Origin: Pseudobdellovibrionaceae bacterium
GTDB taxonomy: Bacteria > Bdellovibrionota > Bdellovibrionia > Bdellovibrionales > JAMPXM01
Length of the DNA: 49,686 bases
Assembly (NCBI GenBank): GCA_947462815.1
Contig: CANHQR010000020.1
Coordinates: 1 to 49,686 of the forward strand
Direction: 5' to 3'
Below, piece after piece: positions 479 to 42,617 of the stretch. The position numbers and the translations under genes were made by a program. A model generated the notes under the pieces. It saw nothing but the letters and a program-made list of their open reading frames with translations, was not told the origin of the DNA and did no database searches. Each line of letters begins with the position of its first letter. Position 1 is the stretch's first letter.

Positions 479-493
479 GGACCTCAGCTGTCC
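479..493 (+). promoter_or_regulatory. Operator-like motif copy A (GGACCnnnGCTGTCC)
   Basis: GGACCTCAGCTGTCC, with GGAC/GTCC outer arms, lies 24 bases before ATG 517. A TTTGG follows at 508-512, 15 bases after the motif end. Copies B and C have TTGG at exactly the same offset. It is a candidate operator or promoter element; the function is inferred. Confidence 0.5.
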
Positions 494-516
494 CAAGGCT
501 CAGCTACTTTGGTCCT

Positions 517-1596
517 ATGAGAAGCTTGAAACAGACTGAGCCCCCCTCGTCGTCCACGGTTGACTCACTTGCCCTAGCTCCAGATCGCGACGAGGCGGGC
601 ACAAGATCTCGACCCTCGCTGCGTGTGCTGTCCTCACCGAACTCGCTGGCGACAAGCAACTCGCCCCATGAGTCAGCCGGGGAAAGCGCCTCAGCTTTTG
701 AACTCACCAGTCGCCTGCAGCGAGCGCGGGAGTACGAGGTGCTCCTGATCGCGGAGGAGTTTCGGCGTCACAACTCCCACGGGGCGGCGGCCTATCTCAT
801 TCTCGCGCATTTGAAACTTGGCGATGAGCATCGGGCCCGACGAGTCGTGGAGTCGCTTCGACCCAGCGACTTTCACATGATGAAGGGTTTGCGACCTCCG
901 ACCAAAGAGTTCTACTTTCGATCGCTCAAGTGGATCCTCGATCACGAAATCTCGCTGCCGGTGAGCTCAAGACAGTATTTCCCCGCTCGCCGCGCGCAAG
1001 CACTCGCCGCCATTCGCGAGGCCTATGCTGGAAGCCTCGATGTCGTGCAACTCAGCGAAGTGCGGGAGCGCATGGCTCGACTGGATCCTGTTCAGACCCA
1101 AATCACGCGAGAGGAGTGCGATGCCCTCTATGCGGAGGCGCTTTTACAATTCACGCGCGGTCGCGCCATAGGCAGTGTCTTTGATCTACTGATGCAGCAG
1201 GCCCGGCGCGATGCAACCTCCTCGATCAACGTCGAAGCGCAAGGTCCCGAGGCCTCGCTGTGGCGGGCGCTGTCGTATCGCCTGTACGCACTGACTCCTC
1301 GCGAAGAGCGAGCCGAGTGGATTTTGTATGGAGGCGATGGGCCCCGGGCGATTGGGCTGGCCCGAGTGCCGCAAAGTGGTTTGATCCTCAAAGATTTTCT
1401 CGCGCCCGCGGCGCGTAATCCGCGCGTGGAGCTTGTCGCGGATCCGCAAGCTCCGCAACCGGACGCACGAGCTTTTGGATCATACGCCTACCTCCTGAAG
1501 AGTCCGCAGGTTCCCGAGGCTCTCAAGCGCCTCTTGATCGATGACTTGGAATTTGCCCGTCGACGTCGCCGCCTGCGAAGAGGAGTGAGCGCATGA
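517..1596 (+). CDS. Helical protein of unknown function, first gene of three-gene operon
   Basis: The protein has 359 residues from ATG 517. The frame can be extended to a TTG at 451, but that would place operator-like copy A inside the gene, so 517 is preferred even though no good ribosome site precedes it. The first 65 residues are Ser/Pro-rich and probably disordered. The rest is helical, rich in Arg/Glu/Leu, and resembles solenoid-type repeats without a clear TPR consensus. No signal peptide is seen. The stop overlaps the start of the TPR gene (ATGA), indicating translational coupling. No function can be assigned. Confidence 0.65.
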   Translation: MRSLKQTEPPSSSTVDSLALAPDRDEAGTRSRPSLRVLSSPNSLATSNSPHESAGESASAFELTSRLQRAREYEVLLIAEEFRRHNSHGAAAYLILAHLKLGDEHRARRVVESLRPSDFHMMKGLRPPTKEFYFRSLKWILDHEISLPVSSRQYFPARRAQALAAIREAYAGSLDVVQLSEVRERMARLDPVQTQITREECDALYAEALLQFTRGRAIGSVFDLLMQQARRDATSSINVEAQGPEASLWRALSYRLYALTPREERAEWILYGGDGPRAIGLARVPQSGLILKDFLAPAARNPRVELVADPQAPQPDARAFGSYAYLLKSPQVPEALKRLLIDDLEFARRRRRLRRGVSA

Positions 1597-2480
1597 ACGA
1601 AAGAGGAATCGGAGAGAAGCGTACAACGAGCGCTTTCACCCGCGTGTTATTCGCCCTGTGTCTTGCGGGCTTCACTCCTCGAGCCGCGAACGCGGAGGCC
1701 CCTGCGACGCCGCCTGTCCAGGACTCGCGCACGGAGTCGTCGACGGATCCTGATCTCGTCCCGGACTATCAGCAGGCGGTGCTGGTGTTTTCATTGCCTG
1801 CGATTGAGCTCTACAACAAAGCGATCGAGGAAAGCCAAAAGTATAATGATGAAGAGGCCGTGCGGCTCTACAAGAAGGCGATTCGTCGCAGTCCGCGATT
1901 TTGGATGGCGTATTCGAATATGGGGACAGCGCTGATTGACCTGGGCCGACTCGATGAGGCCGATCGAGCCCTTCGCCAAGCCCTGCACATCAACCCGAGT
2001 GACGGACTCACGCATATGCACAGATCGCGGATTGCAAGGCTTCGCGGCGATCATCGGCGAGCGCTTAAGCTTTTGCAGCCCTGCTTTCAGTATCAGCAAA
2101 CACGCGAGACTCATGAAGAATGCACCTTTAAACGCGCCCACCTTCTCGAGCGACTCGAGCGCTATCGCGAAGCCCATCAGCTGTATGAGCAATTGGTGAA
2201 GTGGCGTCCCCAGGATCTGGATTCGCTGTTTGGGCGCTTGGTAACGAGTGCTTTTCTCAATCAACCCGCTCGCGCCCGCACAGAGTACGAGGAATGGAAA
2301 TCGGCGGTGGAGCAGAGGGCCAAGCTCTTTGGCCGTCGACCTGAGCAAGTCGACAGGCGTTGGTTTGAGATGCGTGAGATCTTTGAAGCAAAACGACGAA
2401 CCGAGGGCCCCGGCGTTGCGAAGTGGCCCGCCTCAATGCCGGTGCCTGAGCTCACACCCGAACCCCGATCATCGATTTGA
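1593..2480 (+). CDS. Exported TPR-repeat protein
   Basis: This 295-residue protein starts at an ATG that overlaps the stop of the preceding gene. The N terminus has a basic stretch and a hydrophobic core (residues about 20-35) ending in Ala-Asn-Ala, a plausible Sec signal peptide, so it probably acts in the periplasm. Residues about 72-230 form tetratricopeptide repeats; the clearest carry alternating YKKAI, A-Y-N-G and ALRQAL-type helix pairs with the NP turn. TPR proteins usually scaffold protein complexes; the partner is unknown. The gene is the middle of an operon with a helical protein upstream and a zinc-ribbon protein downstream. Confidence 0.8.
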   Translation: MNERGIGEKRTTSAFTRVLFALCLAGFTPRAANAEAPATPPVQDSRTESSTDPDLVPDYQQAVLVFSLPAIELYNKAIEESQKYNDEEAVRLYKKAIRRSPRFWMAYSNMGTALIDLGRLDEADRALRQALHINPSDGLTHMHRSRIARLRGDHRRALKLLQPCFQYQQTRETHEECTFKRAHLLERLERYREAHQLYEQLVKWRPQDLDSLFGRLVTSAFLNQPARARTEYEEWKSAVEQRAKLFGRRPEQVDRRWFEMREIFEAKRRTEGPGVAKWPASMPVPELTPEPRSSI

Positions 2481-2494
2481 GAGAAGGAATTCAT

Positions 2495-3121
2495 ATGCCG
2501 CCTGAACAAAGTTACCCGCATCCCGAAGAAGTCCACAACCTCTGTAAGAGCTGCTTTGAGCGTAAGTTCGAGCGCTACTGCAGGTTTCCGGATCAGTCTA
2601 TGCCGCCTTTCCCGGTGCCGATGATCGGCGAATTTTGCCCGCGCTGCGGCGGCACGGAGATGATTTCGACAGGCGATCTTATCTGGAAGAACGTGCACGG
2701 GGATGGCTGCACGGGACTGCCCATTGGTTTTGTGATTCGAGTTCCCCGACCGAACGACGGTGCCGAGTGGTATCGAGATCGTTGGGGAGCGCCGTATCTG
2801 AGGATGCAGGACTGTCCCTCTTGTGGAATCAAGGCCTGGGTCGTGCAATTTCATGGCAGTCTCTACATCCAGTGCGCGCATTGCACGCCCTTTGGTCGTT
2901 CGCGACCCTTGAGCGAAGATTTTTTTGCTCGCGAGCGAGCCGCACGAGATCGACGCCTCCGCCGCGAGCGCGATCTCCAGCAAGCCGAGGAAGCCGAGCG
3001 CCAGCTTCGCCGCGAAGAGCGCGCCCGTGAGCGTGCCTCCGCGCAAAGCTCGGCCGCAGGTCTCAGCGAAGGCGAGGTCAAAGGCGAGGATGAAGGCGGC
3101 GGCACCGACCAGCGCGACTAA
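2495..3121 (+). CDS. Zinc-ribbon protein with charged coiled-coil tail
   Basis: The start is taken as ATG 2495 because a strong ribosome site (GAGAAGGA) ends about 7 bases before it; a TTG at 2477 would overlap the previous gene. The 208-residue product has Cys clusters at its N terminus (C-x2-C then a further Cys), then CPRCGG, CPSCG and CAHC, which look like two or three zinc ribbons. From about residue 145 it becomes a long Arg/Glu/Ala helix that is probably a coiled coil, followed by a Gly/Glu-rich acidic tail. It could bind nucleic acid or act as an adaptor; I do not recognise the family. It is the last gene of the operon. Confidence 0.75.
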   Translation: MPPEQSYPHPEEVHNLCKSCFERKFERYCRFPDQSMPPFPVPMIGEFCPRCGGTEMISTGDLIWKNVHGDGCTGLPIGFVIRVPRPNDGAEWYRDRWGAPYLRMQDCPSCGIKAWVVQFHGSLYIQCAHCTPFGRSRPLSEDFFARERAARDRRLRRERDLQQAEEAERQLRREERARERASAQSSAAGLSEGEVKGEDEGGGTDQRD

Positions 3122-3144
3122 GTTAGGAGTGACGCGCGACGGGG

Positions 3145-3648
3145 CTACGCGATCGTTGAGCGAAAGCGGCGGGCCCAGCGCGAGTGAAAACTGAGCACGC
3201 GTCGTGTGATCACATAGGAGCGACCGGTCCAGTTGTGATGGGCGACCGCTGCCTGCACGACACTCACTAGAAGCAAGTAAGCGAACACAAGACACTGTGC
3301 ACTCCACGCGAGCGTCGCGCCGATCCAACCTGAGTGCGCCAGCTCGACAAAGAATTCCAAACTCGCGGCAAAGGCCCAGGTCGAAACCGCCAAAATCAGT
3401 ACGTAAATCAGCGACACGATCATAATCCCCGTGCGAAAGCCCCAGCGGTGCATGAGGCCCGCGGCAAAAGGATTCGTTTCATCGCCCGCACCTCCCAGTT
3501 TGAGCCAAGTGCTCCAGACGTCGGCCACCTTGGTGAGCACGACTGCGATCAAGCCGATCGCGTACAGCCACCACCAGATCTGCACAAGTTCAGCCGCGGA
3601 GATATTCAGTTCGCCGTGCAAGTTCACTCCTCGCTTCAAGAGTCTCAC
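3145..3648 (-). CDS. Small integral membrane protein, DUF5658-like
   Basis: The 167-residue product uses GTG 3648; other GTG starts lie just inside, so the exact start is uncertain. It has three to four hydrophobic helices (residues about 25-45, 72-100 and 112-135). The segment D-x2-STWLKLGGAGDETNP after the first helix resembles the D-x2-T...GG..E.NP signature of DUF5658-type membrane proteins, which is a weak assignment. The gene converges on the zinc-ribbon gene and diverges from the XRE gene at 3828. A minus-strand copy of the operator-like motif lies 85 bases upstream. Confidence 0.65.
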   Translation of the reverse strand: MRLLKRGVNLHGELNISAAELVQIWWWLYAIGLIAVVLTKVADVWSTWLKLGGAGDETNPFAAGLMHRWGFRTGIMIVSLIYVLILAVSTWAFAASLEFFVELAHSGWIGATLAWSAQCLVFAYLLLVSVVQAAVAHHNWTGRSYVITRRVLSFHSRWARRFRSTIA

Positions 3649-3732
3649 TTCAGTCTAACTGAGCCTTTGAGACACATAAAAGAGCCTTGGGCTTTTTGAC
3701 CGCTAAAAATCTCATCGAGGGGTGCGGCGGAG

Positions 3733-3747
3733 GGACAGCTCGGGTCC
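3733..3747 (-). promoter_or_regulatory. Operator-like motif copy D, inverted
   Basis: Read on the minus strand this is GGACCCGAGCTGTCC, matching the 12 fixed positions of the motif. It lies upstream of the minus-strand membrane-protein gene and 25 bases from copy B on the other strand. Unlike A-C it has no TTGG at the +15 offset, so it may be an operator only, or chance. Confidence 0.35.
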
Positions 3748-3772
3748 CTTGGACCTTTGCCCATCGACTCGA

Positions 3773-3787
3773 GGACCTAGGCTGTCC
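3773..3787 (+). promoter_or_regulatory. Operator-like motif copy B
   Basis: GGACCTAGGCTGTCC is followed 15 bases later by TTTGG (3802-3806) and lies 41 bases before the XRE gene at 3828. The surroundings match copy A at many more positions (GAGGACCT before, ACTTTGG after). Confidence 0.5.
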
Positions 3788-3827
3788 CGGGAATCGGGCA
3801 CTTTGGATCTGATCACGGAGGTGCTCG

Positions 3828-4106
3828 ATGAATCTCTCCAAAACTTTGCGCGAACTCACTCGTCGCCACTCGCTCACGGTCCCGCGCCTCGCGGCGCGCA
3901 CCGGCGTGCCGGTCAACACGCTTCACAATTGGCTGGCGGGCCAATCGCCGCGTCGACTCGAGCAAGTGAAGCTTGTGGCCGACCACTTCGGCGTGAGCCT
4001 GGAGTACCTACTCTTTGGTGTCGAGTCCAAAGTCGCCCCGCAAGATCTGCACACGCTCCTTGCGAGCGGGCAATTTGAAATCGTGCTGAGAAAAGCTCCG
4101 CGGTGA
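3828..4106 (+). CDS. Small XRE-family DNA-binding regulator
   Basis: This 92-residue protein carries a Cro/C1-type helix-turn-helix over residues about 5-65: the core LTVPRLAARTGVPVNTLHNW is the turn and recognition helix, followed by a leucine-rich dimer region ending LLFG. It starts at ATG 3828 after GGAGGTGCTCG. The C-terminal 25 residues (...LLASGQFEIVLRK) are also conserved in a paralogue at 5299, so they belong to a family rather than being a random tail. Operator-like copies B and D flank its promoter region, which suggests that it, or its paralogue, binds that motif; this is an inference. Confidence 0.85.
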   Translation: MNLSKTLRELTRRHSLTVPRLAARTGVPVNTLHNWLAGQSPRRLEQVKLVADHFGVSLEYLLFGVESKVAPQDLHTLLASGQFEIVLRKAPR

Positions 4107-4257
4107 GGCTTGTGTGGGGGAGAAGGGAACTGCGGCCGTCTCAATTCAAGACACGCCCCTCACGCGCCTATGCGTTTTTAACTCACGCAAAATCGCTCCA
4201 ACTCCCGCGATCTCCAGCCAAGACCACACCGAACTCCGTTGAAAATGTCCGAGTCGC

Positions 4258-4272
4258 GGACCTCGGCTGTCC
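4258..4272 (+). promoter_or_regulatory. Operator-like motif copy C
   Basis: GGACCTCGGCTGTCC is followed at the same 15-base offset by ATTGG (4287-4291). It lies 96 bases before the gene at 4368, so it would leave a longer leader than copies A and B. Confidence 0.45.
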
Positions 4273-4367
4273 GACCTTGGTCGTAGATTGGTGAAAGAGG
4301 GCCGCTCGCTGAATCCGAAACGAGCGCACCAACCGCCTCGCCCCGGGCCAAAAAAGAGGAGTTCCCC

Positions 4368-4709
4368 ATGCGCCCACGCCCTAGCACCGATCCCCAAGTC
4401 GAGAATTTCGATGATGTTCAAGACGATCGCCGCGCGACCCGTCGTGCTCGTCATCACAAAACCCGTCACGAATTTCGACGAACTCGCAATCGTCACCTCG
4501 CTCACCGCCAAAAGAATCGCGGCATCGACGATGAGCTCTTGGACCTCGTCAACACCTACGGCGAGGCCACCTTCGTCGGTGATGGGCGAGTGATCGTGAG
4601 ACTCACGCCGGATCTGATTGAGCGTCTGCAAAAGGTTTATCTCGTACGCGATGTTTCGAGCGGCCAAGTCATTACCGCGGGCCATCGCTTCAAGCGCGTG
4701 AAAGGCTAA
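4368..4709 (+). CDS. Small basic protein of unknown function
   Basis: The start at ATG 4368 is supported by AGAGGAG 7 bases upstream. The 113-residue product begins with about 50 very basic residues (Arg/His-rich, likely disordered or nucleic-acid binding). It ends with a folded-looking domain, from DDELLDLVNTYGEATFVGDG to the C terminus, that alternates beta strands and one helix. I know no family for it. It is followed 43 bases later by a membrane-protein gene in the same direction, possibly one operon. Confidence 0.65.
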   Translation: MRPRPSTDPQVENFDDVQDDRRATRRARHHKTRHEFRRTRNRHLAHRQKNRGIDDELLDLVNTYGEATFVGDGRVIVRLTPDLIERLQKVYLVRDVSSGQVITAGHRFKRVKG

Positions 4710-4751: not shown

Positions 4752-5138
4752 ATGATCTTACTTCAGTTAATCGGATTGGGCGTTCTGATCGCCCTTCTTC
4801 CGTACATCCTCACGGCCGGTCTCTACATCGGCGGGGCACTCTTGATTTTGGGTTGGACGCTCGTCACTTGGCTTTTCACGGTGCCCACCATGCTCTTTGC
4901 CGCGGTGTTTTTGTCCCTCCTCGGCCACACGGATCTTGCGTGGGCGGCCCTCTATGCCGGGATTCCGATCAGCATCCTTGTGAAAATGATTGATCTGAAA
5001 CTTCTCGCGTCCGGTTGGGGTGTTTCCCAGCCCGAGACCACGGCGGATCCCGCAAACGCATCGAATGCATGGAGCGCAACCGAGGTGCCGCAAGCGAAGG
5101 AGCCCAAACGCCGTCGGCCGATTGCGCCGCCATTTTGA
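4752..5138 (+). CDS. Small membrane protein
   Basis: ATG 4752 is chosen over GTG 4746 because TTAGGAG ends 6 bases before the ATG and would overlap the GTG. The 128-residue product has three or four consecutive hydrophobic helices in residues about 3-85, then a polar Thr/Ala/Asn-rich tail ending in a basic RRRPIAPPF. It probably sits in the inner membrane with a cytoplasmic or periplasmic tail. No family is recognised. Confidence 0.65.
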   Translation: MILLQLIGLGVLIALLPYILTAGLYIGGALLILGWTLVTWLFTVPTMLFAAVFLSLLGHTDLAWAALYAGIPISILVKMIDLKLLASGWGVSQPETTADPANASNAWSATEVPQAKEPKRRRPIAPPF

Positions 5139-5298: not shown

Positions 5299-5640
5299 AT
5301 GCAGCTGGCCAAGCGACTCAGGCAACTCGTAGGACAACACCAACTCACGATCCCGGAGCTTTCGCGCCTCACGGGTGTACCGGTGAATACGCTGCACAAT
5401 TGGCTCTCGGGCCAAGCGCCGCGCAAACTCGAACAGGTGAAGCAAGTCGCCGAGTTCTTCAACGTGACGCTCGATGATCTGATCTTCGGCCAGGAGATCC
5501 GCATCGAGCCCACGAAGCTCCCCGAGCTCTTGATGACTGGCCAGTACGAAATCGTCATCCGCCCCACCACACGCCGCCGCGAGCCCGATGCATCCGGAGC
5601 GGGAGGCGGGAAAGTGGAACCCGCCAAGGAGCGCAAGTAG
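5299..5640 (+). CDS. Small XRE-family regulator, paralogue of the 3828 gene
   Basis: The frame is open from GTG 5260, but alignment with the paralogue at 3828 (MQLAKRLRQLV against MNLSKTLRELT) and a GAGAG upstream favour ATG 5299, giving 113 residues. The helix-turn-helix core LTIPELSRLTGVPVNTLHNW is nearly identical in the recognition helix (PVNTLHNWL.GQ.PR.LEQVK), so both proteins may read similar DNA. Residues about 85-113 are an extra Arg/Gly-rich tail missing from the shorter paralogue. No copy of the GGACC/GCTGTCC motif is found before this gene. Confidence 0.8.
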   Translation: MQLAKRLRQLVGQHQLTIPELSRLTGVPVNTLHNWLSGQAPRKLEQVKQVAEFFNVTLDDLIFGQEIRIEPTKLPELLMTGQYEIVIRPTTRRREPDASGAGGGKVEPAKERK

Positions 5641-7898: not shown

Positions 7899-10058
7899 GT
7901 GAACATCTTTGAAACCCACCCAAAACCGCTCAAACTTTTGCTCACACAAATTCACAACGGAGAACTCGCTCTACCCGATTTTCAGAGAGACTTTGTGTGG
8001 GAGCCTGGAGCGGTTGAAGAATTAATTGAATCAATCATGAGAGCGTATCCGGCGGGTAGCCTACTTTTCCTCAAGCACTCCGGCGAAGGATTTCAAGTCA
8101 GAGAATTTGAGGGCGCACCCAAGCTAAAATCTGCAATGTCCACGAGTTACCTCGTGTTGGATGGTCAGCAGAGACTGACCTCGCTCTTTCAAGCGTTCTT
8201 CGGAAAGGGAGAACACGTTTTTTATCTCGATATTCGTGAACTGAGCGAGACTGAGGACATCGAAGCAGCAGTATGGCACGAATCACGAAAACGAGCCGAG
8301 CGAATGGACCTCATGGACATTCAGACACAAGCAGAAAGGTTGTTTTGTCCGCTCAGTGTAGTCATGACAGATGGGTTCGATAGCTGGATCGACGAAATCA
8401 TGGATCATCGCGTAGAGAAAGGTGATGAAGCGAAAGAACTTAGAGCAACTTTAAGGCAAGTGAACAAAGATTGGATCGCGCCGATTCTTGAGTATCAGTT
8501 TCCTGTTGTAACTCTTTCCTCGGAGACGCCAATAGATGCTGTCTGCAAAATGTTTGAGACCCTCAACCGACGTGGTGTGAAGCTCACAGTGTTTGAACTC
8601 CTCATGGCGCGTTCTTTTATGAATAAAGTTTCTCTCCGCCAGCTCTGGGATGAGGCACAAGAGAAGTATCCTGTTTTTGAAGAGTTTAATATTGATCCCT
8701 ATTATGTACTTCAAACAGTTTCGCTGTTGGAGGGCAGGACCCTAAAGCGTAAAGAGATACTTGATATTCGACCGAATACAATCATGTCTCATTGGGAGAA
8801 AGCCACTTCAAGTCTCGCTGAAGTTATCACGTTTCTGCGCCGAAATGCTGGGGTTCTATCGCCCTCAATTTTGCCCTACAACACAATGTTGATTCCGCTT
8901 GCTGCGGCATGGGCAAAGACGTCTGACATCAAAGGCCCGGCCGAAGCATCTCGAAGAGATAAATTCAAAACATGGTTTTGGGCCTCTGTTTTCAGTCAAG
9001 CCTATGAAAAGGCCCCTGCAAGCAGAGCAGTTGCTGACTTCAAAGACCTGGTGAGATGGATTGCAGGGGAAGATCGGCTCCCCTTTGGAGTGAGAACACT
9101 TTACTTCAACCCTGAGATGTTCACAGACATCACTCCGAAACAACGAGCTCTTTACCGTGGCACTATTGCTTTGGTTTGTTCGAATGGCGTACTAGACTTT
9201 CACAAGGCCGAACCACTGACTTTTGACTACTTGCAAGCCAACAAAGTGGATGATCACCACGTTTTTCCACAGGGATACCTGAAGGTCCGGGGCGAAGATG
9301 AGTGGATGAACTGTGTTTTGAACAGAACACTGATCGACAAGAAAACCAACATTAGAATTAGCAATAAAGCGCCGAGCCGTTATCTTGCTGAGATTGAAAC
9401 GGAAGTTGGCAAAGAGAAGATGGAAAAGATTTTATCTAGCCATATTCTCCCATCATCCGAACTTCGCGGAGACGACTTTGAATCGTTCATGATTGAACGT
9501 GCGAAGATGCTATTTGAAAGGCTTAAGGCCCAAGTTGGGCGAGACATTCCGCTCGCACAAGTTGCATACGTAGAGACGCATGATGAAATTGATGAGGAAG
9601 GCGAAGATGATCGTATGATTCCGCGCGAGAAGTTTGATCCTACCTCAATCAATGCGTATCCTGCGGATTTGTTGGATGGATTGCCTAAGGAAACCGAAGA
9701 ACTCTTCATTAGGTTCACAGAGTCTCTATCGGCTAAAGCACCAAATGTTTGGTTTAAATCCAATCAGACTAAAGTTGTCTTTTGGTCACCAAACAAGGTC
9801 TTTTGCTCTGTGCGACTTTCAAAGAGCGGTCTTCATTTCACAACTTACACAGATGGCAAAGATCTAAAGGATGTCTCGCCGATCGTACAGAAAGATCGCG
9901 GGGGCGAACTCTGGGGCCGAATTAAGCTCAGGCGATTGGAAGATTTGAGTCGTGTTGTTGAAACGCTACTTGAGTCACACAAGCGGCTCCAGATCGCAGT
10001 CAAAGAGGGTCGTCCAACCGCATGGTGGGCCATGACGCGGAAGGATAGGAGCAACTGA
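7899..10058 (+). CDS. GmrSD-type defence nuclease (DUF262-DUF1524-DUF5655)
   Basis: The 719-residue product uses GTG 7899 with TAGGAG upstream. Residues about 5-230 are the DUF262/GmrS ParB-like domain: LPDFQRDFVWEPGAVEELI and the catalytic-type DGQQRLTSL near residue 88. Residues about 400-520 are the DUF1524/GmrD HNH-type nuclease, with the signature DDHHVFPQGYL near 451 and N-R-T-L..K.N-I-S-N-K-P after it. Residues about 595-700 match a DUF5655 domain common at the C terminus of such proteins. GmrSD enzymes are single-chain type IV restriction systems that cut modified phage DNA. All key motifs are present. The gene stands in an island with other defence-like genes. Confidence 0.9.
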   Translation: MNIFETHPKPLKLLLTQIHNGELALPDFQRDFVWEPGAVEELIESIMRAYPAGSLLFLKHSGEGFQVREFEGAPKLKSAMSTSYLVLDGQQRLTSLFQAFFGKGEHVFYLDIRELSETEDIEAAVWHESRKRAERMDLMDIQTQAERLFCPLSVVMTDGFDSWIDEIMDHRVEKGDEAKELRATLRQVNKDWIAPILEYQFPVVTLSSETPIDAVCKMFETLNRRGVKLTVFELLMARSFMNKVSLRQLWDEAQEKYPVFEEFNIDPYYVLQTVSLLEGRTLKRKEILDIRPNTIMSHWEKATSSLAEVITFLRRNAGVLSPSILPYNTMLIPLAAAWAKTSDIKGPAEASRRDKFKTWFWASVFSQAYEKAPASRAVADFKDLVRWIAGEDRLPFGVRTLYFNPEMFTDITPKQRALYRGTIALVCSNGVLDFHKAEPLTFDYLQANKVDDHHVFPQGYLKVRGEDEWMNCVLNRTLIDKKTNIRISNKAPSRYLAEIETEVGKEKMEKILSSHILPSSELRGDDFESFMIERAKMLFERLKAQVGRDIPLAQVAYVETHDEIDEEGEDDRMIPREKFDPTSINAYPADLLDGLPKETEELFIRFTESLSAKAPNVWFKSNQTKVVFWSPNKVFCSVRLSKSGLHFTTYTDGKDLKDVSPIVQKDRGGELWGRIKLRRLEDLSRVVETLLESHKRLQIAVKEGRPTAWWAMTRKDRSN

Positions 10059-15742: not shown

Positions 15743-16291
15743 TCACTCGAATTTTGATTTCTGAATGGCTACGTCTACACATTCAGCATCGGGGAATATG
15801 TCCGTTGAGCCTGTGGCACAGCCGCTCAGCGCCTGATCCGCACCAGGAAGATCGCGGATCCTTACAAACACCCGATAGTTGCGCTCGTTTCTTTGAATGC
15901 AGATGTGGGGTGAGGCCTCGCTCGACTTTTGGCAATGAGCCATGAAGATTTGTTGAATGCTGTCGGGGACTTCAATCTTGGGTTCCAAGACGGCGTCGTT
16001 GTTGTTGGGCACATCGGAAGCGACGGTCGCTTTCTCGTCTGCCTCACGCACGGCCTCTTCGATCCAAGCTGTGTCGTTGGTTGGGCTGGAGAGCGAACTT
16101 GTTGATGCCATCGACGTGTTCTCGCGACTCTCCGGAAGAACTGCTTCGGCAAATGGCTGTGGTTTTGGTTTACGAGTCGGTGGGGAGCGCATTTCATGTT
16201 TATTCATTACGATGAGGGCGGTTGGAATGAAGAGCGTCCAAGTGGGCAAGTCCCGCGTCCAGATCGACTGATTTTTTTGGCGGTCATTCAT
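15743..16291 (-). CDS. Single-pass membrane protein, last gene of a small operon
   Basis: The frame is open to 16525, but ATG 16291 is favoured: GGGAG lies 6 bases upstream and the start overlaps the stop of the upstream gene by 8 bases. The 182-residue product has one hydrophobic helix (residues about 15-30, WTLFIPTALIVM), a Ser/Pro/Glu-rich linker, and a C-terminal domain with four Cys (AHCQKSSEASPHICIQRNER and ...GCATGSTDIFPDAECVDV), suggesting periplasmic disulfides. I recognise no family. Confidence 0.55.
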   Translation of the reverse strand: MNDRQKNQSIWTRDLPTWTLFIPTALIVMNKHEMRSPPTRKPKPQPFAEAVLPESRENTSMASTSSLSSPTNDTAWIEEAVREADEKATVASDVPNNNDAVLEPKIEVPDSIQQIFMAHCQKSSEASPHICIQRNERNYRVFVRIRDLPGADQALSGCATGSTDIFPDAECVDVAIQKSKFE

Positions 16292-16760
16292 GCTCATCTC
16301 CCGCGACACCGAGAATTTGCTCGACACAATCGAGTATGACCGCTTCGTCCTCAAACTGATCGGCACAGGCATCCGCCGCTTCTGCAAGGAGCGCTGAGTT
16401 GTAGGACATATCTCTGGGCAATTGGACCGGTCTTGAAGCCCTCGATTCAAGGGCGCTTTCACATGCTGAGTTGTGGTCCGACGAGGGACAAGGTCTAAAC
16501 GCATCGGCAGAATTTGTCGTTTCACTTTTGGATGCGAATCCTACGTGCGATCCTTGAGGGCGAGGGTTAGCGCCTCGATTTGATGGAGTCACATTCTTGA
16601 TCGTTACATTTTGAGACACGCGGTCTTGCTCGGAGAGTTCGAAGGGCGAAAGGAGAACTCCCCGGACGCTCGACGAAGAGAGACTGGCTTTCAGCGAGAA
16701 AAGGACAGAAAGCACAGTCATTAGTTTTTTGGACTCTTTGCGGGCCAAAGTGTTGCTCAT
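16284..16760 (-). CDS. Unknown protein, N-terminal hydrophobic segment
   Basis: The 158-residue product starts MSNTLARKESKKLMTVLSVL, a basic stretch and hydrophobic core that could be a signal peptide or anchor. The middle is low-complexity (Ser/Asn/Pro) and the end is acidic with three Cys. It overlaps the start of the downstream gene. No strong ribosome site is visible and no family is recognised, so this is a moderate-confidence gene supported mainly by the overlap and the coherent direction of the group. Confidence 0.5.
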   Translation of the reverse strand: MSNTLARKESKKLMTVLSVLFSLKASLSSSSVRGVLLSPFELSEQDRVSQNVTIKNVTPSNRGANPRPQGSHVGFASKSETTNSADAFRPCPSSDHNSACESALESRASRPVQLPRDMSYNSALLAEAADACADQFEDEAVILDCVEQILGVAGDEHE

Positions 16761-16839
16761 CGAGAATCAGTTTCGCATTTGCGGGGGACAGGTGGGGTCC
16801 TTGCGTTAGCGTGATCCCCATCTCGCACAGCGTTTGGAC

Positions 16840-32638: not shown

Positions 32639-33841
32639 TTACTCTTCTGATCCACCGTTAACCGGCGAACCACGTTTCAAAGCCCGCATGTCTCCCAAGT
32701 TCACAACATTCGCCATCGGCTGACTTCCGCCGGAGCTGAACCCTGGAAACTTAAGTGCTTCGGTCGCTCCCGCAACATCGAGGCCCGCAAGCCTGATGTA
32801 TCGGTTCATGACCTTTTCCTCCGTCCAGCCGCAGATCTTTTTTACGATCGGTGACGAGACACCTGCGTTAAGCAAGTGCGTCGCAAAGCACGCTCTCAGA
32901 GCGTGAAAATTCACGGAGGTGATTCCGATCTTGAGGCAATGATCTCGCAGAAACTTGGCTGCTTCTCCGTTGCCCCAGCGCGAAGCGCGAGGAAGTACGT
33001 TCTTCTGCGTGATCGGCGTTTTCTCTCGAAGGTCCATCAACATCGCTTCAAGCTCGGCATTCATTGGTACTTTTCTCCAGTAGCCAGCTTTCGTGGATTT
33101 GACCGACTTCAAGCGGCAGTTCCACGACTTGGAAACCGTAACGAGCTTCTTTTCCCAATCGAGATCAGTCCACTCAAGAGCGTACAATTCGCCGGATCGC
33201 ATTCCGGTGTTGAGCGCCATGAACCAGATCGGATACCACGGATGCTCTTCGGCTTTCGCGGTCTCAAGCAGCCGATGGATCTCGGCCATGCCTAAAATCT
33301 GCGGCGGCTTGTCTTCGATGTACTTCGGAAGCTGAACGCTCTGCGCTGGTGAAGCGTGAACGCCGTTCAAGTGTCCCTCATCAATGCCGAAGCGAAACAC
33401 ATTGTTGATTGCCGACTTCATTGAACGAAGTCGACCTCGCGAATAGTCTTTCTCTTCCATCACATTGATAATTCGACGAACGTCGCCCGGAGTGATGTCG
33501 CGACAATCGCGCTTGTACCAATCACTCGTCCAAGCTCTGAGAAAGCTGACCATCTCGCGAAGGATATCCGTCTGCATCTTCGCCCGCGTGGCAGTCCCAC
33601 TTCGGAGTGTGACCTCGAAGGTATCAAGTAGTTCGCCCCAAGACATTGTCATGTCTTCGAGTCGAGCAAGTTCCATCGATGCCTCAGAGATCATCTGCTT
33701 TTCGATCTGCTGGGCTTCACGAAGTCCACGAATCTGCTTCCGACGCTTCTGGATGCGAGCGCTTTTCTTAAACTTACTTTTGACGTCGACGTAGACCTCA
33801 AAAAACTTCTGTCCGTTTTCTACGACTTCTCTTATCGCCAT
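32639..33841 (-). CDS. Tyrosine recombinase/integrase
   Basis: The 400-residue protein has a SAM-like N-terminal core-binding domain and a C-terminal catalytic domain: Arg in NTGMRSGELYAL near residue 213, H-x-x-R in FHALRACFATHLL near 311 and the nucleophile Tyr in NRYIRLAG near 346. It cuts and rejoins att sites to integrate or excise the element. A Gly/Ser-rich tail of about 30 residues ends it. The start overlaps the stop of the excisionase-like gene, so both are coexpressed. Confidence 0.95.
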   Translation of the reverse strand: MAIREVVENGQKFFEVYVDVKSKFKKSARIQKRRKQIRGLREAQQIEKQMISEASMELARLEDMTMSWGELLDTFEVTLRSGTATRAKMQTDILREMVSFLRAWTSDWYKRDCRDITPGDVRRIINVMEEKDYSRGRLRSMKSAINNVFRFGIDEGHLNGVHASPAQSVQLPKYIEDKPPQILGMAEIHRLLETAKAEEHPWYPIWFMALNTGMRSGELYALEWTDLDWEKKLVTVSKSWNCRLKSVKSTKAGYWRKVPMNAELEAMLMDLREKTPITQKNVLPRASRWGNGEAAKFLRDHCLKIGITSVNFHALRACFATHLLNAGVSSPIVKKICGWTEEKVMNRYIRLAGLDVAGATEALKFPGFSSGGSQPMANVVNLGDMRALKRGSPVNGGSEE

Positions 33842-34128
33842 CTCTTACTCCTTTGTTGTGCTTGCGAGGCACTTCGACCGGAGTTTTCAATGAGCCCATC
33901 AATCTCGTGTCTATCGAAGTAAAGGCGACCGTAGAGTTTCTTCGGTTCTAGCCTTTGCCTCATTACGAGTTTCTTGATGGAGGCACGCGTGGTGCCGAGA
34001 TAGAGAGCCACTTCATCTGTTCTCAACCATCTTTTAACTGTCAAAGAACGAAGCTTCGCTTCCGCTTGCTCAATCGCAATTTGCGACTGAACTGTTGAAA
34101 GATCCGCTGCTGCTGATTCGTTATCCAT
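33832..34128 (-). CDS. Excisionase-like helix-turn-helix protein
   Basis: ATG 34128 is supported by AAAGGAGAACACA; a longer frame to 34149 is unlikely. The 98-residue product has a MerR/HTH_17 type domain (LRTDEVALYLGTTRASIKKL and KLYGRLYFDRHEIDGLI). Such proteins bend DNA at the att site and steer the integrase towards excision. It overlaps the integrase gene by 10 bases, the normal xis-int arrangement. Confidence 0.85.
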   Translation of the reverse strand: MDNESAAADLSTVQSQIAIEQAEAKLRSLTVKRWLRTDEVALYLGTTRASIKKLVMRQRLEPKKLYGRLYFDRHEIDGLIENSGRSASQAQQRSKRWR

Positions 34129-34145
34129 TGTGTTCTCCTTTGGGT

Positions 34146-34496
34146 TCAATCATTTTTTTGAATTTGGACTTCGCCGCGAATCAGGCGGCCGATAAATTGA
34201 TCGAGCGAGATTTTGCCGTTTTGTTTTTGATAGCTGTCGTGCGCCATCTGCAGCCGATCTTTCTCGGAATAGGTCTGCTCTTGAAGTTCGCCTAAATGCT
34301 TTTGTTCAATGAGCTTGAGACCTAGTGCGATAAGTTCACTGTCTCGAACTTTGCGACCGAACGGCTTCTTGTTGGCTCGCTCCTTCAGCTGTGAAAGCTG
34401 TCGCGCGGTTTCAACGTCAATCTTCTTCAAAAACGATTGGCGCTTAATGGTGGCCTTCTTCGGTGACTTAGAATCAATAGGGATCTCTAAAGACAT
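34146..34496 (-). CDS. Small unknown protein of the element
   Basis: The 116-residue protein starts at ATG 34496 after TAGGAGGAATAT. It is charged and helical without a signal or membrane segment. It contains KRQSFLKKIDVETARQLSQL and ends ...LIRGEVQIQKND. The position before xis-int suggests an accessory role in mobility, for example in regulating excision, but no family is recognised. Confidence 0.7.
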   Translation of the reverse strand: MSLEIPIDSKSPKKATIKRQSFLKKIDVETARQLSQLKERANKKPFGRKVRDSELIALGLKLIEQKHLGELQEQTYSEKDRLQMAHDSYQKQNGKISLDQFIGRLIRGEVQIQKND

Positions 34497-34550
34497 ATAT
34501 TCCTCCTAATAGTTGTGAGTTTTCATATAGTTACGCGGCAAAATGCCTAA

Positions 34551-34579
34551 TTGCGGTTTTGCGGCAAATCGGCTATAGT
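34551..34579 (+). promoter_or_regulatory. Sigma-70-type promoter of the toxin-antitoxin pair
   Basis: TTGCGG (34551-34556), a 17-base spacer and TATAGT (34574-34579) fit a standard promoter. GCGGCAAA occurs twice (34535-34542 and 34561-34568), once upstream and once in the spacer, and may be the operator for the antitoxin. Confidence 0.7.
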
Positions 34580-34595
34580 ATTCTGAGAGGTGTTT

Positions 34596-34835
34596 ATGGG
34601 AGCTCGCAGAAAAGCCACATTTTATATGGATGCAGAAGTGCACAAAGCTTTGCGCATCAAGGCTGCAGAGGACGACACTTCTCCGTCGGAGCTTCTCAAC
34701 GAGCTGCTCGCCAAAGATCTTCAGGAATATATGGAGGATCTCGAAGACGTTGCGGACGCGAAGGCTCGCCGCAGCGAACTTGGCAAAGGTCTTACGCTCG
34801 ATCAGATGAAGAAGAAGTATAAAGTAAATGTCTAA
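34596..34835 (+). CDS. Antitoxin, ribbon-helix-helix type
   Basis: ATG 34596 has GAGAGG upstream (a GTG at 34590 is also in frame). The 79-residue protein has an RHH/CopG-like N terminus (RRKATFYMDAEVHKALRIKA) that should dimerise and bind DNA. The C terminus, rich in Glu/Lys, probably wraps the toxin. Its stop overlaps the toxin start by 8 bases, the classical toxin-antitoxin coupling. Confidence 0.88.
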   Translation: MGARRKATFYMDAEVHKALRIKAAEDDTSPSELLNELLAKDLQEYMEDLEDVADAKARRSELGKGLTLDQMKKKYKVNV

Positions 34836-35085
34836 GTTTCGAGTAATCTTCAACGCTTCGGCGGAGAAGGAGTTTTCGAAACTAGATAAGACGGTGCAAG
34901 CCCGGGTCTTCAAAGCGATCGCCAAACTCGAAGACGATCCGCGCCCCCCGAACTGCAAAAAGTTAAAGGGCTCTCCGAACTGGAGAATCCGAGTTGGCGA
35001 TTTTCGAGTCGTGTACGAAATCGTGGACGATACGGTCCAGATCAACATCGTGAAGATAGGCCATCGCAAAGAAGTATATGACTGA
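34828..35085 (+). CDS. RelE-type toxin
   Basis: The 85-residue protein matches RelE/ParE family toxins: FRVIFNASAEKEFSKLDKTV, PPNCKKLKGSPNWRIRVGDF and RVVYEIVDDTVQINIVKIGH then RKEVYD. RelE toxins cleave mRNA at the ribosome. The pair probably stabilises the mobile element by killing cells that lose it. Confidence 0.9.
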   Translation: MSKFRVIFNASAEKEFSKLDKTVQARVFKAIAKLEDDPRPPNCKKLKGSPNWRIRVGDFRVVYEIVDDTVQINIVKIGHRKEVYD

Positions 35086-35092
35086 GATCGAG

Positions 35093-35836
35093 TCATAACT
35101 TCCGCCGTGGTTGCTCAACAACCAGAACCTTGATCGTCATCGGTCCTTTCAGAACTGAATATTCGGGTGCTTGTCGCACTTTTTCAGCGAATCGATCTGC
35201 CGTTCTGGCGAGCGCGCTGCTAATCGCCTTCTTTCCGCTGGTATCGAGCGACTTCTCTTCTTGCTGATTCCCAAAAGCATTTGTCGGTCGGTTCACAGAC
35301 GCGTCCGCAAAACCGGCCGCTGCTGCTGCTCCAAATTCGGCCGCAAAAAACTTCGATTCGCCGGAGAAATATTCGCCTTCGAGTCCAAGAATTCCGTCGC
35401 CGTCCATCGCGTGACCTTTGAACTCGAAAATTTCCGACGAATTTTCAGTTCTGGCCGATTTGAAGTCGACAAGGATACGTTTCGAATTCTTTTCGAGTGT
35501 CGCTTCACCGATCAAAACAATCTCTCGACCTCGGTCATCGGTTAGAAAAGCTGCGACCGGAGCCTTGCTTTCATTGAATGCAAGGACGCTCTGTTTGATT
35601 CGCGCCAACTGCATTTCCCCGGGCAAAAGTGATCCGAGTTCACGACCGACAGGTTGTGCCGGAAGTACGATCGGGTTGCCTTGAACGACATGTGCCCAAC
35701 TACTTCCTTGAGACTTCATGCTCCGATAGCGCTGTCTCTGGGCAACCTCGGCAGTTGGCACAGGTTTAGGTTCTTCTTTGAAAAGCGGTGTTCTCGCCAA
35801 CGCAATGGATGGAAGAAGCATAAGCAATAGGATCAT
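35093..35836 (-). CDS. VirB10/TraB-like protein with signal peptide
   Basis: The 247-residue protein resembles the C-terminal beta-barrel domain of VirB10/TraB: VGRELGSLLPGEMQLARIKQ, PVAAFLTDDRGREIVLIGEA, ILVDFKSA and DGILGLEGEYF. In place of a cytoplasmic region and transmembrane anchor it starts with a short hydrophobic signal-like segment (MILLLMLLPSIALA). It would therefore be periplasmic and attach to the outer-membrane core only. It overlaps the upstream gene by ATGA. It is the last gene of the secretion operon. A lost N-terminal part or a new start is the alternative, but no upstream reading frame continues it. Confidence 0.7.
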   Translation of the reverse strand: MILLLMLLPSIALARTPLFKEEPKPVPTAEVAQRQRYRSMKSQGSSWAHVVQGNPIVLPAQPVGRELGSLLPGEMQLARIKQSVLAFNESKAPVAAFLTDDRGREIVLIGEATLEKNSKRILVDFKSARTENSSEIFEFKGHAMDGDGILGLEGEYFSGESKFFAAEFGAAAAAGFADASVNRPTNAFGNQQEEKSLDTSGKKAISSALARTADRFAEKVRQAPEYSVLKGPMTIKVLVVEQPRRKL

Positions 35837-36294
35837 TCGAACTGTCCTTCGTGGAGTTTACGAACGATCTTCAGTTTCGGTTCAGCCTTCGGCGCGAGCG
35901 AAGTTTCAACCAGAGTTCGACCTGTCGAATGAAAGCCGGGAGCGCCGAATGCGCCACGAACTTGAATGATGTCCTGATGGCCGGAGGTGACCGGCACGAC
36001 ATCAAAGACGAAAGTGCGTTTCGTCGTGCGAATAATTAGGTTCGTACGAAATGCACTGCCTTCTACCCAGAACAGCGTAAGTTCTTTCGGATCTGATGTC
36101 GATGGCACGACTTTAAGCTTTCGAGGTGCTCCGACTTTCGCTTCAGCGATCGATTCTGGCATTTCCAAAACAGATACGCGCCCTGGTGCAATGTGAATTT
36201 CTGTCGACTTGGAAAGATCGACGACGGCGCGTGAAATCGGTTCGGCAGCAAATGTCGGCAAAGCAATCAGCGCGAATAAACTAGAGAACAACAT
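35833..36294 (-). CDS. VirB9/TraK-like secretin-type protein
   Basis: ATG 36294 follows GGAGGTGTCCG. The 153-residue protein has a signal peptide ending PTFAAEP, then a beta-rich domain containing STEIHIAPGRVSVLEMPESI and FRTNLIIRTTKRTFVFDVVP, like the N-terminal domain of TraK/VirB9. Proteins of this type form the outer-membrane core ring of the T4SS. It is short compared with the usual 250-300 residues and may lack the C-terminal domain. It overlaps both neighbouring genes. Confidence 0.7.
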   Translation of the reverse strand: MLFSSLFALIALPTFAAEPISRAVVDLSKSTEIHIAPGRVSVLEMPESIAEAKVGAPRKLKVVPSTSDPKELTLFWVEGSAFRTNLIIRTTKRTFVFDVVPVTSGHQDIIQVRGAFGAPGFHSTGRTLVETSLAPKAEPKLKIVRKLHEGQFE

Positions 36295-36850
36295 CGGACA
36301 CCTCCGAGATTTCAAATGGCCATGGGTTTGATTCACTTCTTTCATGAACGCGCACCTTCAACGTGACTTTGAGATTGGTCGAAACGGATTCGATTCGTTT
36401 TGCGATATGGATTTGAAGCAAAACTTCGACTGTTTCTTCATCTAATAGGTCTATTGAAAGAATCTTCGATGTCTGAACGAGCGGTTCAGTTTTCAATCGC
36501 TCATTGATTCGCTGAAGATCTGCTCGTTTCGATTCCCAGAGTGATGAGGCCATCACGTCGCCAGCGCGACTGATCTTTTCGGCATGATTGCTTGGTGAAA
36601 ACTCGTAGTAGTTCGAGATAAATCCTCGAACAAAACTCACGATCTCCTTTCGCCTGAGCGTTTCGTTAGATTGTGAAATCACATAAGAGGCGTCGTCGGC
36701 GACGCCAATTAAGATCGTCTTCTCTGTTTTCATTAATGCAACAGCTGTCGCTGTGATTGCCCAAAGTGCAAGAGCGGCGATCAATGAAGCTCGTAGCACC
36801 TCTTCGCGAATAAATCGGCTGCGAATCCAATACTGAACGGCAAATTTCAC
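36281..36850 (-). CDS. VirB8/TraE-like inner-membrane assembly protein
   Basis: GTG 36850 is chosen because AGGAGGTTTAAA precedes it and it overlaps the upstream stop (GTGA); a longer frame to 37066 is a shadow of the upstream gene. The 189-residue product has a short cytoplasmic N terminus, one transmembrane helix (residues about 18-40, ASLIAALALWAITATAVALM) and a periplasmic domain, the TraE/VirB8 layout. VirB8 proteins bring the inner-membrane complex together during assembly. Confidence 0.8.
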   Translation of the reverse strand: MKFAVQYWIRSRFIREEVLRASLIAALALWAITATAVALMKTEKTILIGVADDASYVISQSNETLRRKEIVSFVRGFISNYYEFSPSNHAEKISRAGDVMASSLWESKRADLQRINERLKTEPLVQTSKILSIDLLDEETVEVLLQIHIAKRIESVSTNLKVTLKVRVHERSESNPWPFEISEVSDVVL

Positions 36851-37575
36851 TTTAAACCTCCTGCCATCTTTAAGGCGATACCAGTGACCGTTCGGAGTGC
36901 CGACTGCGGTGCCGCCTGACGAAGCAACGCGAGACAGAACAACGGCGAAAAAAATTGAAGTACGGTAACGGAGATCGAAAACACGATCGAAGAAAGCGAA
37001 GTCGATTGAAACGACGGCCAAAGATTTGATGACAAAAGACCGATCACATTCCAAAGCACCGGCCACAGTGCAAATGCCAAAAGGCTTGAGCCTAAGGCGG
37101 CAATTCCGACGCCTTGTCCAAGAATGTATCCAGAAATGAATATCAACGGCGCTGCTACCGCTAAAAGACCGATGAGAAGCGAGAACACCGCGCGAACGAG
37201 GTGCAGAACCGTGATGTCGCCAATATCTGATAGCAGCCCAACGAATAGAACGTGCGTCTTCAACGACCCGAGTAGATTGTCGATAGCGCCACTAGAGCGA
37301 GCATAAGCTTCGAATCGAATTGCCGCTGCGATTTGCCCGGAAGCCATAACAACTGTTTTTAGAACAAACGGAAAAATCGCGAGGGCCAAAAGCAATACAA
37401 CGGTATCGCGCACGAGGTCGGCAAACGCGTGTGCGCCTTCAACCTGAACGATTAGCAGAGCCACTCGCGCGATGAAAACCGCACTCGTGATACCAAGAAC
37501 GATCCCAGCTACTCGCTGAAATGTTTCAATGACAGCCTGAAGGACACCAGAATCAATAGGTGGAAATGGAGTCAT
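36847..37575 (-). CDS. VirB6-like polytopic membrane protein
   Basis: The 242-residue protein has five to six hydrophobic helices spread over its length, without a signal peptide, and falls exactly in the VirB6 place. VirB6 proteins form part of the inner-membrane channel. The sequence is too diverged for a family match by eye, so size, topology and position are the evidence. Confidence 0.7.
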   Translation of the reverse strand: MTPFPPIDSGVLQAVIETFQRVAGIVLGITSAVFIARVALLIVQVEGAHAFADLVRDTVVLLLALAIFPFVLKTVVMASGQIAAAIRFEAYARSSGAIDNLLGSLKTHVLFVGLLSDIGDITVLHLVRAVFSLLIGLLAVAAPLIFISGYILGQGVGIAALGSSLLAFALWPVLWNVIGLLSSNLWPSFQSTSLSSIVFSISVTVLQFFSPLFCLALLRQAAPQSALRTVTGIALKMAGGLK

Positions 37576-38177
37576 CGCAACCGCCCACGACTGAGAGCGC
37601 GACGGTTGGTGAGTCCTTCCTCTTCAAGCACCTGCCCCAGAGCAAGCTGATAGTTCGCTCGCTGCTCTTTGTTTTCCAATGCGCTTTCGAACTGCATTCT
37701 CCGAATCGCCATGAGTTCATCAAGAATCATGTATTGAAGACGCGCTTCCTGAACTTTGAGGCCCTTTTCACCCGATTTCGGTCGAAGGCCCATCATCGCC
37801 GCAAGTCGCTTTGTGGTTTGTATCATGTCCCGCACGCGTCGAATCCGAGAGGCAAACGATCGCGATCGAGCGAGGTCCTGACCAATCAGCGACTTGATGT
37901 CGCGCTCTCCATCACGAAGATTTCGGGACTGTCGCTCGATCTCTTCGAGTCGTTTTACTTGTGCTTCGATCTCCTGATCGGTCTCAGTATCGATATCGAG
38001 CTCGTCGACAAGATCAGCAACGGCAAATCCTGCATCGGCCATTTCGTCGGCCTCGCGGAGACTTCCCATAATTCCAGAGACTGCCTGTACACCGGCCGCA
38101 ATCGTAAACGGATCAAAAGCGAAAGATTTTGATCCGGTCATCACGATCAGCACTATCGGGACGCAACGGACAGACAT
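37572..38177 (-). CDS. VirB5/TrbJ-like exported helical protein
   Basis: The 201-residue protein starts with a signal peptide (CVPIVLIVMTGSKSFA) after GAGGAGGCG. The mature part is long and helical (EADEMADAGFAVADLVDELD, QVKRLEEIERQSRNLRDGER), like VirB5/TrbJ minor pilus proteins. It overlaps the ATPase gene by 25 bases and the VirB6-like gene by 4. Confidence 0.7.
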   Translation of the reverse strand: MSVRCVPIVLIVMTGSKSFAFDPFTIAAGVQAVSGIMGSLREADEMADAGFAVADLVDELDIDTETDQEIEAQVKRLEEIERQSRNLRDGERDIKSLIGQDLARSRSFASRIRRVRDMIQTTKRLAAMMGLRPKSGEKGLKVQEARLQYMILDELMAIRRMQFESALENKEQRANYQLALGQVLEEEGLTNRRALSRGRLR

Positions 38178-40282: not shown

Positions 40283-40538
40283 AAATCACCTTTGGTCCAA
40301 CAGTTGAAAAAGCGAAGTCGCGAACGATTTTCCGTCGGAACTTCAAACGAATAGCGATCAACACGTATCCGACTATGGCCACCGCAACGAACGAGAGCAG
40401 CCCAAGATCGAATGAGTCGAGCAGTCCGTGAGTCGCGACGAGCAAATATCCGAGTGCGCACAGATCGAGACTCGTGAGGCCCATAAAGCCTACCGGCTCG
40501 TTAAGAATTCTGAGTGGTGTTCTGCCAGCGCGCTTCAT
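40266..40538 (-). CDS. VirB3/TraL-like membrane protein
   Basis: The 90-residue protein has one or two hydrophobic helices and the signature ending RLKFRRKIVRDFAFS, then KVIYDPE, typical of VirB3/TraL. It lies between the pilin-like gene and virB4, with overlaps at both ends. VirB3 works with VirB4 at the inner membrane. Confidence 0.8.
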   Translation of the reverse strand: MKRAGRTPLRILNEPVGFMGLTSLDLCALGYLLVATHGLLDSFDLGLLSFVAVAIVGYVLIAIRLKFRRKIVRDFAFSTVGPKVIYDPET

Positions 40539-40813
40539 AGAGCAGCCCCGAAAATGCGGCCGAGAAGGCCGATCAGGGCCGGCGCGCCTAGAATGGCGAT
40601 CGCACCGATGAATCCGCTAAACAGCAGCATCCTCCCAATTTGTGCCGCACCCATCGCGAAGAGAATTCCGCCTAGCGTGACGCCGATTGAAATCGCAGCG
40701 ATGCCGATGCGATTGAAAAATGATTGAGCGCTCGAAGCGGCGTCGACGAGGTCGCGCGCGAACGCCGGCTCGACAAGAATGAGCGTAGCTAAAATTAGAA
40801 CGAAGAACTTCAT
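40535..40813 (-). CDS. VirB2-like pilin
   Basis: The 92-residue protein has a signal peptide (MKFFVLILATLILVEPAFA) followed by two hydrophobic helices (IGIAAISIGVTLGGILFAMG and MLLFSGFIGAIAILGAPALI) separated by a short loop, the exact layout of VirB2/TraA prepilins. The mature protein would be about 70 residues. Confidence 0.85.
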   Translation of the reverse strand: MKFFVLILATLILVEPAFARDLVDAASSAQSFFNRIGIAAISIGVTLGGILFAMGAAQIGRMLLFSGFIGAIAILGAPALIGLLGRIFGAAL

Positions 40814-41298
40814 TTAGAACCTCCATTAGAACGTGATGGATTGAGACTTGGTGGAACGAGCTCCATGACGAGCCCTTGATGGATAAGACGATTTTCTCCG
40901 TCTTCGACCCACTGATCGATTTCACTCACGCGCCAAGAGCCTGGCTGAACGAGCGACCGATACTTCGCAGGAATTTTTGCGCCGAACGTAGCTGGCGATT
41001 CGAGAATTCGACGGGGTGCACGAATACGATCAAGTTCTTCGCTCAGAGTCTGTGCTTCCTTTCGAAAGCGCTCTGACTCCGCGTCTGTATTCCAAATCAG
41101 AAGGCCGGCAGCGCCGGCTCCGGCGGCGGCCAATCCACCATAGAGAGCGGCGTTCTGCTCGCGATGCTCTGGGCGTGAAAGGCCATAAAGCACGCCGGCA
41201 GCCCCCGCGATCGCCATCGTTTGCAGCGTCTTTCCAGTGTTGGTCGTCGCGCAACCTGTGAAACAGAAGAGAGAAAAAATCGCACCGATGACTTTCAT
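40810..41298 (-). CDS. Lipoprotein of the secretion operon, VirB7/TraV position
   Basis: The 162-residue product starts at ATG 41298, which overlaps the stop of the upstream gene. It begins with a signal peptide ending FTGC, a good lipobox. A hydrophobic segment (residues about 55-75) and a charged helix (...ESERFRKEAQTLSEELDRIR) follow. It might stabilise the outer-membrane ring, as VirB7/TraV lipoproteins do; the sequence alone does not prove this. Confidence 0.75.
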   Translation of the reverse strand: MKVIGAIFSLFCFTGCATTNTGKTLQTMAIAGAAGVLYGLSRPEHREQNAALYGGLAAAGAGAAGLLIWNTDAESERFRKEAQTLSEELDRIRAPRRILESPATFGAKIPAKYRSLVQPGSWRVSEIDQWVEDGENRLIHQGLVMELVPPSLNPSRSNGGSK

Positions 41299-42428: not shown

Positions 42429-42543
42429 CTGGAACCTCCTGAGGCGGACAGGGATAACCCGTTGAAATTCCAGCGGTCATCGAAGTGACGATCTAAATAT
42501 TTTCGCTGAACGCGAAGATTCAGAGATGAAACGACTCTTTAAC

Positions 42544-42565: not shown

Positions 42566-42617
42566 CTCCATCTTCCGGTTGCAACTGCACAAAGCTAGTG
42601 CAAGACAATTTGCCTAT

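Follow-up and report, generated by a model that had tools for sequence, protein, structure and literature searches.

A repeated inverted motif in a Pseudobdellovibrionaceae genome as the predicted promoter site of a DriD-type WYL activator

A short inverted repeat that recurs in front of several genes raises the question of whether it controls them and, if so, which protein reads it. The repeat considered here lies on a contig of a Pseudobdellovibrionaceae bacterium (CANHQR010000020.1); the whole stretch of 49,686 nucleotides that was analysed is referred to as the window. A preliminary description had suggested that four copies of GGACCN3GCTGTCC may be the operator or promoter of a small local regulon, perhaps read by the XRE proteins encoded at 3828 and 5299. 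The four copies are exact (479(+), 3733(-), 3773(+) and 4258(+); Table 1). A search by pattern of the 3.43-Mb genome (3,429,156 bases, 107 contigs) returned these four matches, every one in the window, and 0 matches to the reversed pattern that served as control; the exact motif was absent from 12 further genomes of this family. The clustering of exact copies in the window is far from chance.

Table 1. Sites, -10-like hexamers and genes of the window, followed by versions of the motif in other genomes of the order
Feature	Position	Strand	Remark
Predicted activator site GGACCTCAGCTGTCC	479..493	+	Upstream of 517-1596; ATG at 517, 23 bases past site
-10-like hexamer TACTTT	505..510	+	Site 479; its last bases plus GG form TTGG at 509-512
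Protein of unknown family	517..1596	+	Predicted target
TPR protein	1593..2480	+	Predicted target; same putative operon as 517-1596
Small membrane protein	3145..3648	-	Possible target
Site GGACCCGAGCTGTCC	3733..3747	-	Divergent from 3773; no -10 hexamer at right distance
Predicted activator site GGACCTAGGCTGTCC	3773..3787	+	Upstream of XRE gene 3828-4106
-10-like hexamer CACTTT	3799..3804	+	Site 3773
XRE-family regulator, 92 aa	3828..4106	+	Predicted target
Predicted activator site GGACCTCGGCTGTCC	4258..4272	+	Upstream of 4368-4709
-10-like hexamer TAGATT	4284..4289	+	Site 4258
Small basic protein, unknown family	4368..4709	+	Predicted target
Small membrane protein	4752..5138	+	Possible target, downstream of 4368
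Second XRE regulator	5299..5640	+	No site upstream
ORF of 158 aa, unknown family	16284..16760	-	Possible target
-10-like hexamer GAAACT	16769..16774	-	Site 16786
Fifth site GGACCCCACCTGTCC	16786..16800	-	Upstream of ORF 16284-16760(-); ATG at 16760, 25 bases on
B. qaytius WYL locus, TTGCCTAATGTGCAA and TTGCCTTAAATGCAA			Divergent pair
G038, TTGCCTACACTGCAA and TTGCCTAAAATGCAA			4-7 kb from the G038 WYL gene
G005 C19 WYL paralogue, TGTCCTGAGGTGACA			Adjoining
G012 locus, TGACCTCACCTGACA			Also upstream of the G073 XRE gene
G134, TGACCTCCCGTGACA			
Third G005 WYL paralogue, TGACCTCATGTGAAA			
G106, TGTCCTTGGCTGTCC			

One-mismatch copies of the motif are mostly scattered through the genome, with the exception of a divergent pair on contig C70 (10982(-) and 11068(+), 86 bases apart start to start), which lies between the genes for a PEGA-domain protein and a lipoprotein, with a gene for an HTH-WYL-WCX regulator further along the same strand. 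This pair reduces the consensus to the actual core, GGACCN5TGTCC, which occurs 12 times in the genome: seven times upstream of genes (five in the window, two on C70) and five times elsewhere, four of these inside long open frames. The reduced core also reveals a fifth site in the window, and the GGAC-N7-GTCC arms are present at all window sites. In a genome of another genus (G005; genomes are cited by our labels, the window's own being G000), the orthologous intergenic region on contig C6 likewise contains a divergent pair (GGACCTTTCCTGTCC and GGACCCGACGTGTCC), with flanking proteins only 27% and 42% identical to those on C70. Among 141 genomes of the order, GGACCYN4TGTCC was clustered or paired only in the window's genome (C20, C70) and in G005 (C6). 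The role of operator or promoter is thus supported by the positions upstream of genes, the conserved orthologous locus and a fixed distance to a -10 hexamer, described below; the regulon is only partly local, because contig C70 holds a second locus. The one-mismatch copies GAACCACAGCTGTCC found at contig ends were rejected as sites; they recur at or near the starts of contigs C28, C78, C87 and C101 of the same genome and are probably a repeat that broke the assembly.

A TTGG at one fixed offset had also been noted, and it does lie exactly 15 bases past the motif at the three plus-strand sites, but the constant feature is a -10-like hexamer, nAnnnT, of which the last two bases followed by GG make up the TTGG. 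In 10 of the 13 sites whose choice took no account of it, the hexamer begins 12 bases past the motif (binomial P about 2e-10 for p = 0.0625); at each other offset, nAnnnT appears in at most four of 21 sites. Within the window's genome, it stands at +12 in six of the seven GGACCN5TGTCC sites upstream of genes and in none of the five others. Matches to the core plus -10 in intergenic DNA, at loci outside the set from which the rule was drawn, numbered 10, against 1.06 in shuffles (maximum 5). Since the site at 3733(-) has no such hexamer at the right distance, it is possibly no promoter for the gene at 3145-3648(-).

The distance to the start codon is similarly regular: an ATG lies exactly 23 bases past the motif at window site 479, at the PEGA gene of C70 and at the PEGA gene of Bdellovibrio sp. 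qaytius, and 24 bases past it at the PEGA gene of G005. This spacing suggests leaderless transcripts that start at the ATG, in which case the motif would span roughly -38 to -24. The sites would thereby occupy the -35 region and keep a constant spacing to the -10, as expected of a DriD-type activator. The same spacing bears on a reading of the motif as an RNA leader hairpin, with a GGAC/GUCC stem and a seven-base loop. Most changes in one arm are compensated in the other, and the loop is polar (C...U), as such a hairpin would have it, but with a start codon 23-24 bases on and the -10 in between at four genes, the motif would not be transcribed; moreover, the full stem is not formed by the sites of G106 or by the TGACC/TGACA sites, and an Rfam search gave no meaningful match. 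We therefore give the hairpin next to no credence.

Which protein would read the sites is indicated by the genes that accompany them. The window's genome has a single close HTH-WYL-WCX regulator, that of C70 (G000:C70:13665-14648), whose WYL (7e-14) and WCX (5.9e-16) domains score above cut-off and whose HTH domain is weak. A profile of this protein retrieved ten close members in eight of the 141 genomes of the order, including Bdellovibrio sp. qaytius (L103), a Bdellovibrionales MAG (L102) and a Bdellovibrionaceae MAG (L104). Each of the ten, which come from eight Bdellovibrionales genomes, is accompanied in its locus by some version of the motif, and every version takes the form nnnCC-N5-TGnnn. 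Because family-wide matches to TGTCCN5TGACA were mostly chance occurrences inside genes and were discarded as sites, only sites adjoining WYL or XRE genes were used. Positions 4-5 (CC) and 11-12 (TG) are invariant in 21 sites, some of which had been picked by this core. The outer arms (GGA/TCC, TGW/ACA or TTG/CAA) go with the recognition helix across the ten proteins: KTVRRDL pairs with GGAC/GTCC; DTIYRDLK and DSIYRDLK with TTGC/GCAA; and RTIYRD, RTIHRD and ETVYRD with TGWC/GWCA or something close to it. The G106 protein (RTVRRD) has the right arm TGTCC, like other TVRRD proteins, yet also TGACC forms, and so more than one arm type. With ten proteins being few, we treat the apparent link between helix and arms as a lead.

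A polar motif at a fixed distance from a downstream element, with a spacing that resembles -24/-12, could also belong to promoters of an alternative sigma factor, of the ECF or sigma-54 kind. Such a factor would not require both arms to change together between lineages, as they do here, and the linkage is to a WYL gene. The hexamer downstream resembles that of sigma-70 promoters, the bases disagree with the -24/-12 consensus of sigma-54, and the TGTC and TTGC forms have no GG. We consider this explanation highly improbable.

The first proposal, that the motif is the operator of the XRE proteins encoded at 3828 and 5299, which would autoregulate a local regulon, was reasonable on the evidence of the window by itself. 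It draws on the XRE genes that immediately follow a site in G000, G005, G073 and, in broken form, G007, and on dyad arms that suit a dimeric HTH protein. The motif does not come and go with the XRE genes, however. Three genomes with both the WYL gene and the motif (B. qaytius, G012 and G134) have no XRE homologue, and the XRE genes of WYL-less genomes have no motif, one broken XRE excepted; it is for these reasons that we regard the XRE gene at 3828 as a target of the site rather than the source of its reader. Of 27 further XRE loci, 26 of them with readable upstream DNA, a single one has the motif, and its genome carries a WYL gene. G005 has one close XRE protein and two arm types, which instead match its WYL paralogues, and the motif is always directed at a gene, like the site of an activator coupled to RNA polymerase. 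An XRE operator thus appears quite unlikely. The second XRE protein is 57% identical to the first; a search of the genome_contigs set found no XRE relatives. In G007, where the motif stands upstream of the broken XRE gene (L014, G007:C135:7605-7880, with an in-frame TGA), there is no close WYL gene; given the in-frame stop, we read this locus as probably a decayed copy of the system, though the case does not fit neatly. A second inverted repeat, around TTGATT (GATCGATTGATTTCGATC and GAATGATTGATTTCATTC), lies upstream of the XRE genes of G005 (L013) and G007 (L014), kept in both with changed arms.

We place a probability of roughly 0.87 on the reading in which the motif is the binding site of a DriD-type HTH-WYL-WCX activator, encoded on C70, at promoters where the motif stands in for the -35 element. 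From the computed sites, their spacing and conservation, the linkage to WYL genes and the match to DriD promoters, we infer binding and activation of the following kind. A homodimer of the C70 protein would bind the 15-base motif, which would cover about -38 to -24 of the promoter and replace the -35 element, with a weak -10 (nAnnnT) starting 12 bases on. Direction would be set by the asymmetric core CC-N5-TG, and the outer arms, here GGA/TCC, would be read by the two HTH domains. On binding of a signal by the WYL domains, the dimer would retain the housekeeping RNA polymerase at promoters as poor as these. The genes switched on would be those for the PEGA protein and the lipoprotein on C70, probably together with the regulator's own operon, and, in the window, 517-2480, the XRE gene at 3828, the genes from 4368 onwards and probably the ORF at 16284-16760. 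XRE genes are probably recurrent targets, in four genomes, and would add a second layer of control. Several observations count against the DriD-type reading: the misfit of the site at 3733(-) and the only partial fit of the G012 site and of the bapE promoter of DriD, the motif without a WYL gene in G007, the distance between sites and WYL gene in G038, and the arms in G106.

Among the predicted targets in the window, the product of 1593-2480 resembles the TPR protein encoded at the WYL locus of G005 (E 1.5e-12) and that of a G038 TPR gene with a site of its own (E 1.8e-13); no homologues of 517-1596 were found in the family genomes. A histone-deacetylase-family gene of G038 (L121:197-1120(-), PF00850) has its own TTGCC-N5-TGCAA site, and a similar gene lies near the G005 WYL locus (L067:4864-5709). 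Elsewhere in the window, positions 7899-10058 encode a 719-aa protein that by eye is like DUF262/GmrSD-type enzymes, possibly a defence gene near the regulon. An integrase (32639-33841, -) and a TraC/TrbE-like ATPase (38153-40282, -), both recognized by eye, suggest an integrative conjugative element at 32639-43518; two genes there, at 41295-42428 and 42973-43518, show 37% and 82% identity, respectively, to neighbours of the G005 XRE gene.

The closest known counterpart of the proposed activator is DriD of Caulobacter crescentus, an activator that answers DNA damage by way of single-stranded DNA. It binds ATACGAC-N7-GTCGTAT in an asymmetric manner, covering the -35 region with constant spacing to the -10 (PMC12340889). 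It is the nearest solved protein to the WYL regulator by sequence (E 1.1e-17, full length), and both are HTH-WYL-WCX proteins throughout. A fold comparison likewise placed DriD first, with BrxR and CapW next, which we take as support only, the model of the B. qaytius protein being of low confidence (pLDDT 67). When the DriD promoter sequences printed in the preprint (PMC12340889) were scanned, two of the three published promoters, CCNA_03891 (CGACCGTTTCTGTCG-N11-CAATCT) and didA (CGTCCGTTTCTGGCG-N11-CAAGGT), were found to share the CC-N5-TG core and the 11-base gap to nAnnnT. On the shared core, the gap and the nearest-protein match, the window sites resemble the promoters of DriD. In its domains and promoter geometry, including a GAC-N7-GTC site over the -35 region and asymmetric docking, the C70 protein looks DriD-like. 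The two differ in their outer arms and in their targets, which here are PEGA, lipoprotein, TPR and XRE genes and for DriD are didA, bapE, dnaG and recJ; DriD does not regulate itself, whereas sites here flank the regulator's own locus.

They differ, too, in the presumed sensor. The Arg pair (RxxR) of the WYL domain, which serves single-stranded DNA binding in PafBC and SiwR, reads R-S-W-R in DriD; aligned to DriD, nine of the ten proteins have K-x-[FY]-[ASN] and that of G134 has R-T-Y-A, the second Arg being A, S or N. With this pair absent, the signal of the C70 protein may be something other than single-stranded DNA. More tentatively, and at somewhat below even odds in our estimation, the Bdellovibrionales could hold a branch of DriD-like activators in which a WYL pocket without the Arg pair senses another ligand, half-sites have split (GGAC, TGTC/TGAC, TTGC) in step with the helix, and paralogues that share a cell, of which G005 has three, could govern distinct regulons of envelope proteins and XRE regulators. 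The open-access literature yielded no paper that deals with a Bdellovibrio WYL regulator.

Other WYL proteins match the system in part. SiwR of Mycobacterium smegmatis is likewise a homodimeric WYL activator that binds an imperfect palindrome, between -35 and -10, and controls adjacent genes, but its palindrome is of 19 bp, its targets are DinB/YfiT-like genes and it needs the WYL Arg pair (PMC10693628). Mycobacterial PafBC also enables the housekeeping polymerase at promoters without a -35 element; it is, however, a heterodimer in which only PafB contacts DNA (a -26 motif), and it does not bind DNA without polymerase (PMC11804915), while the window's genome has one close WYL gene rather than the two of a PafBC-type heterodimer. 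BrxR and CapW share the HTH-WYL-WCX fold but are repressors of defence systems, with sites placed otherwise. The repeat would thus define a small, testable regulon, an uncharacterised one of envelope and XRE genes in relatives of predatory bacteria, in which the rule of core and arms makes the specificity of WYL activators testable residue by residue. The DriD layout would recur here in a different lineage, its core and spacing constant and its arms varying with the recognition helix, and may serve as a rule for finding the regulons of WYL activators.
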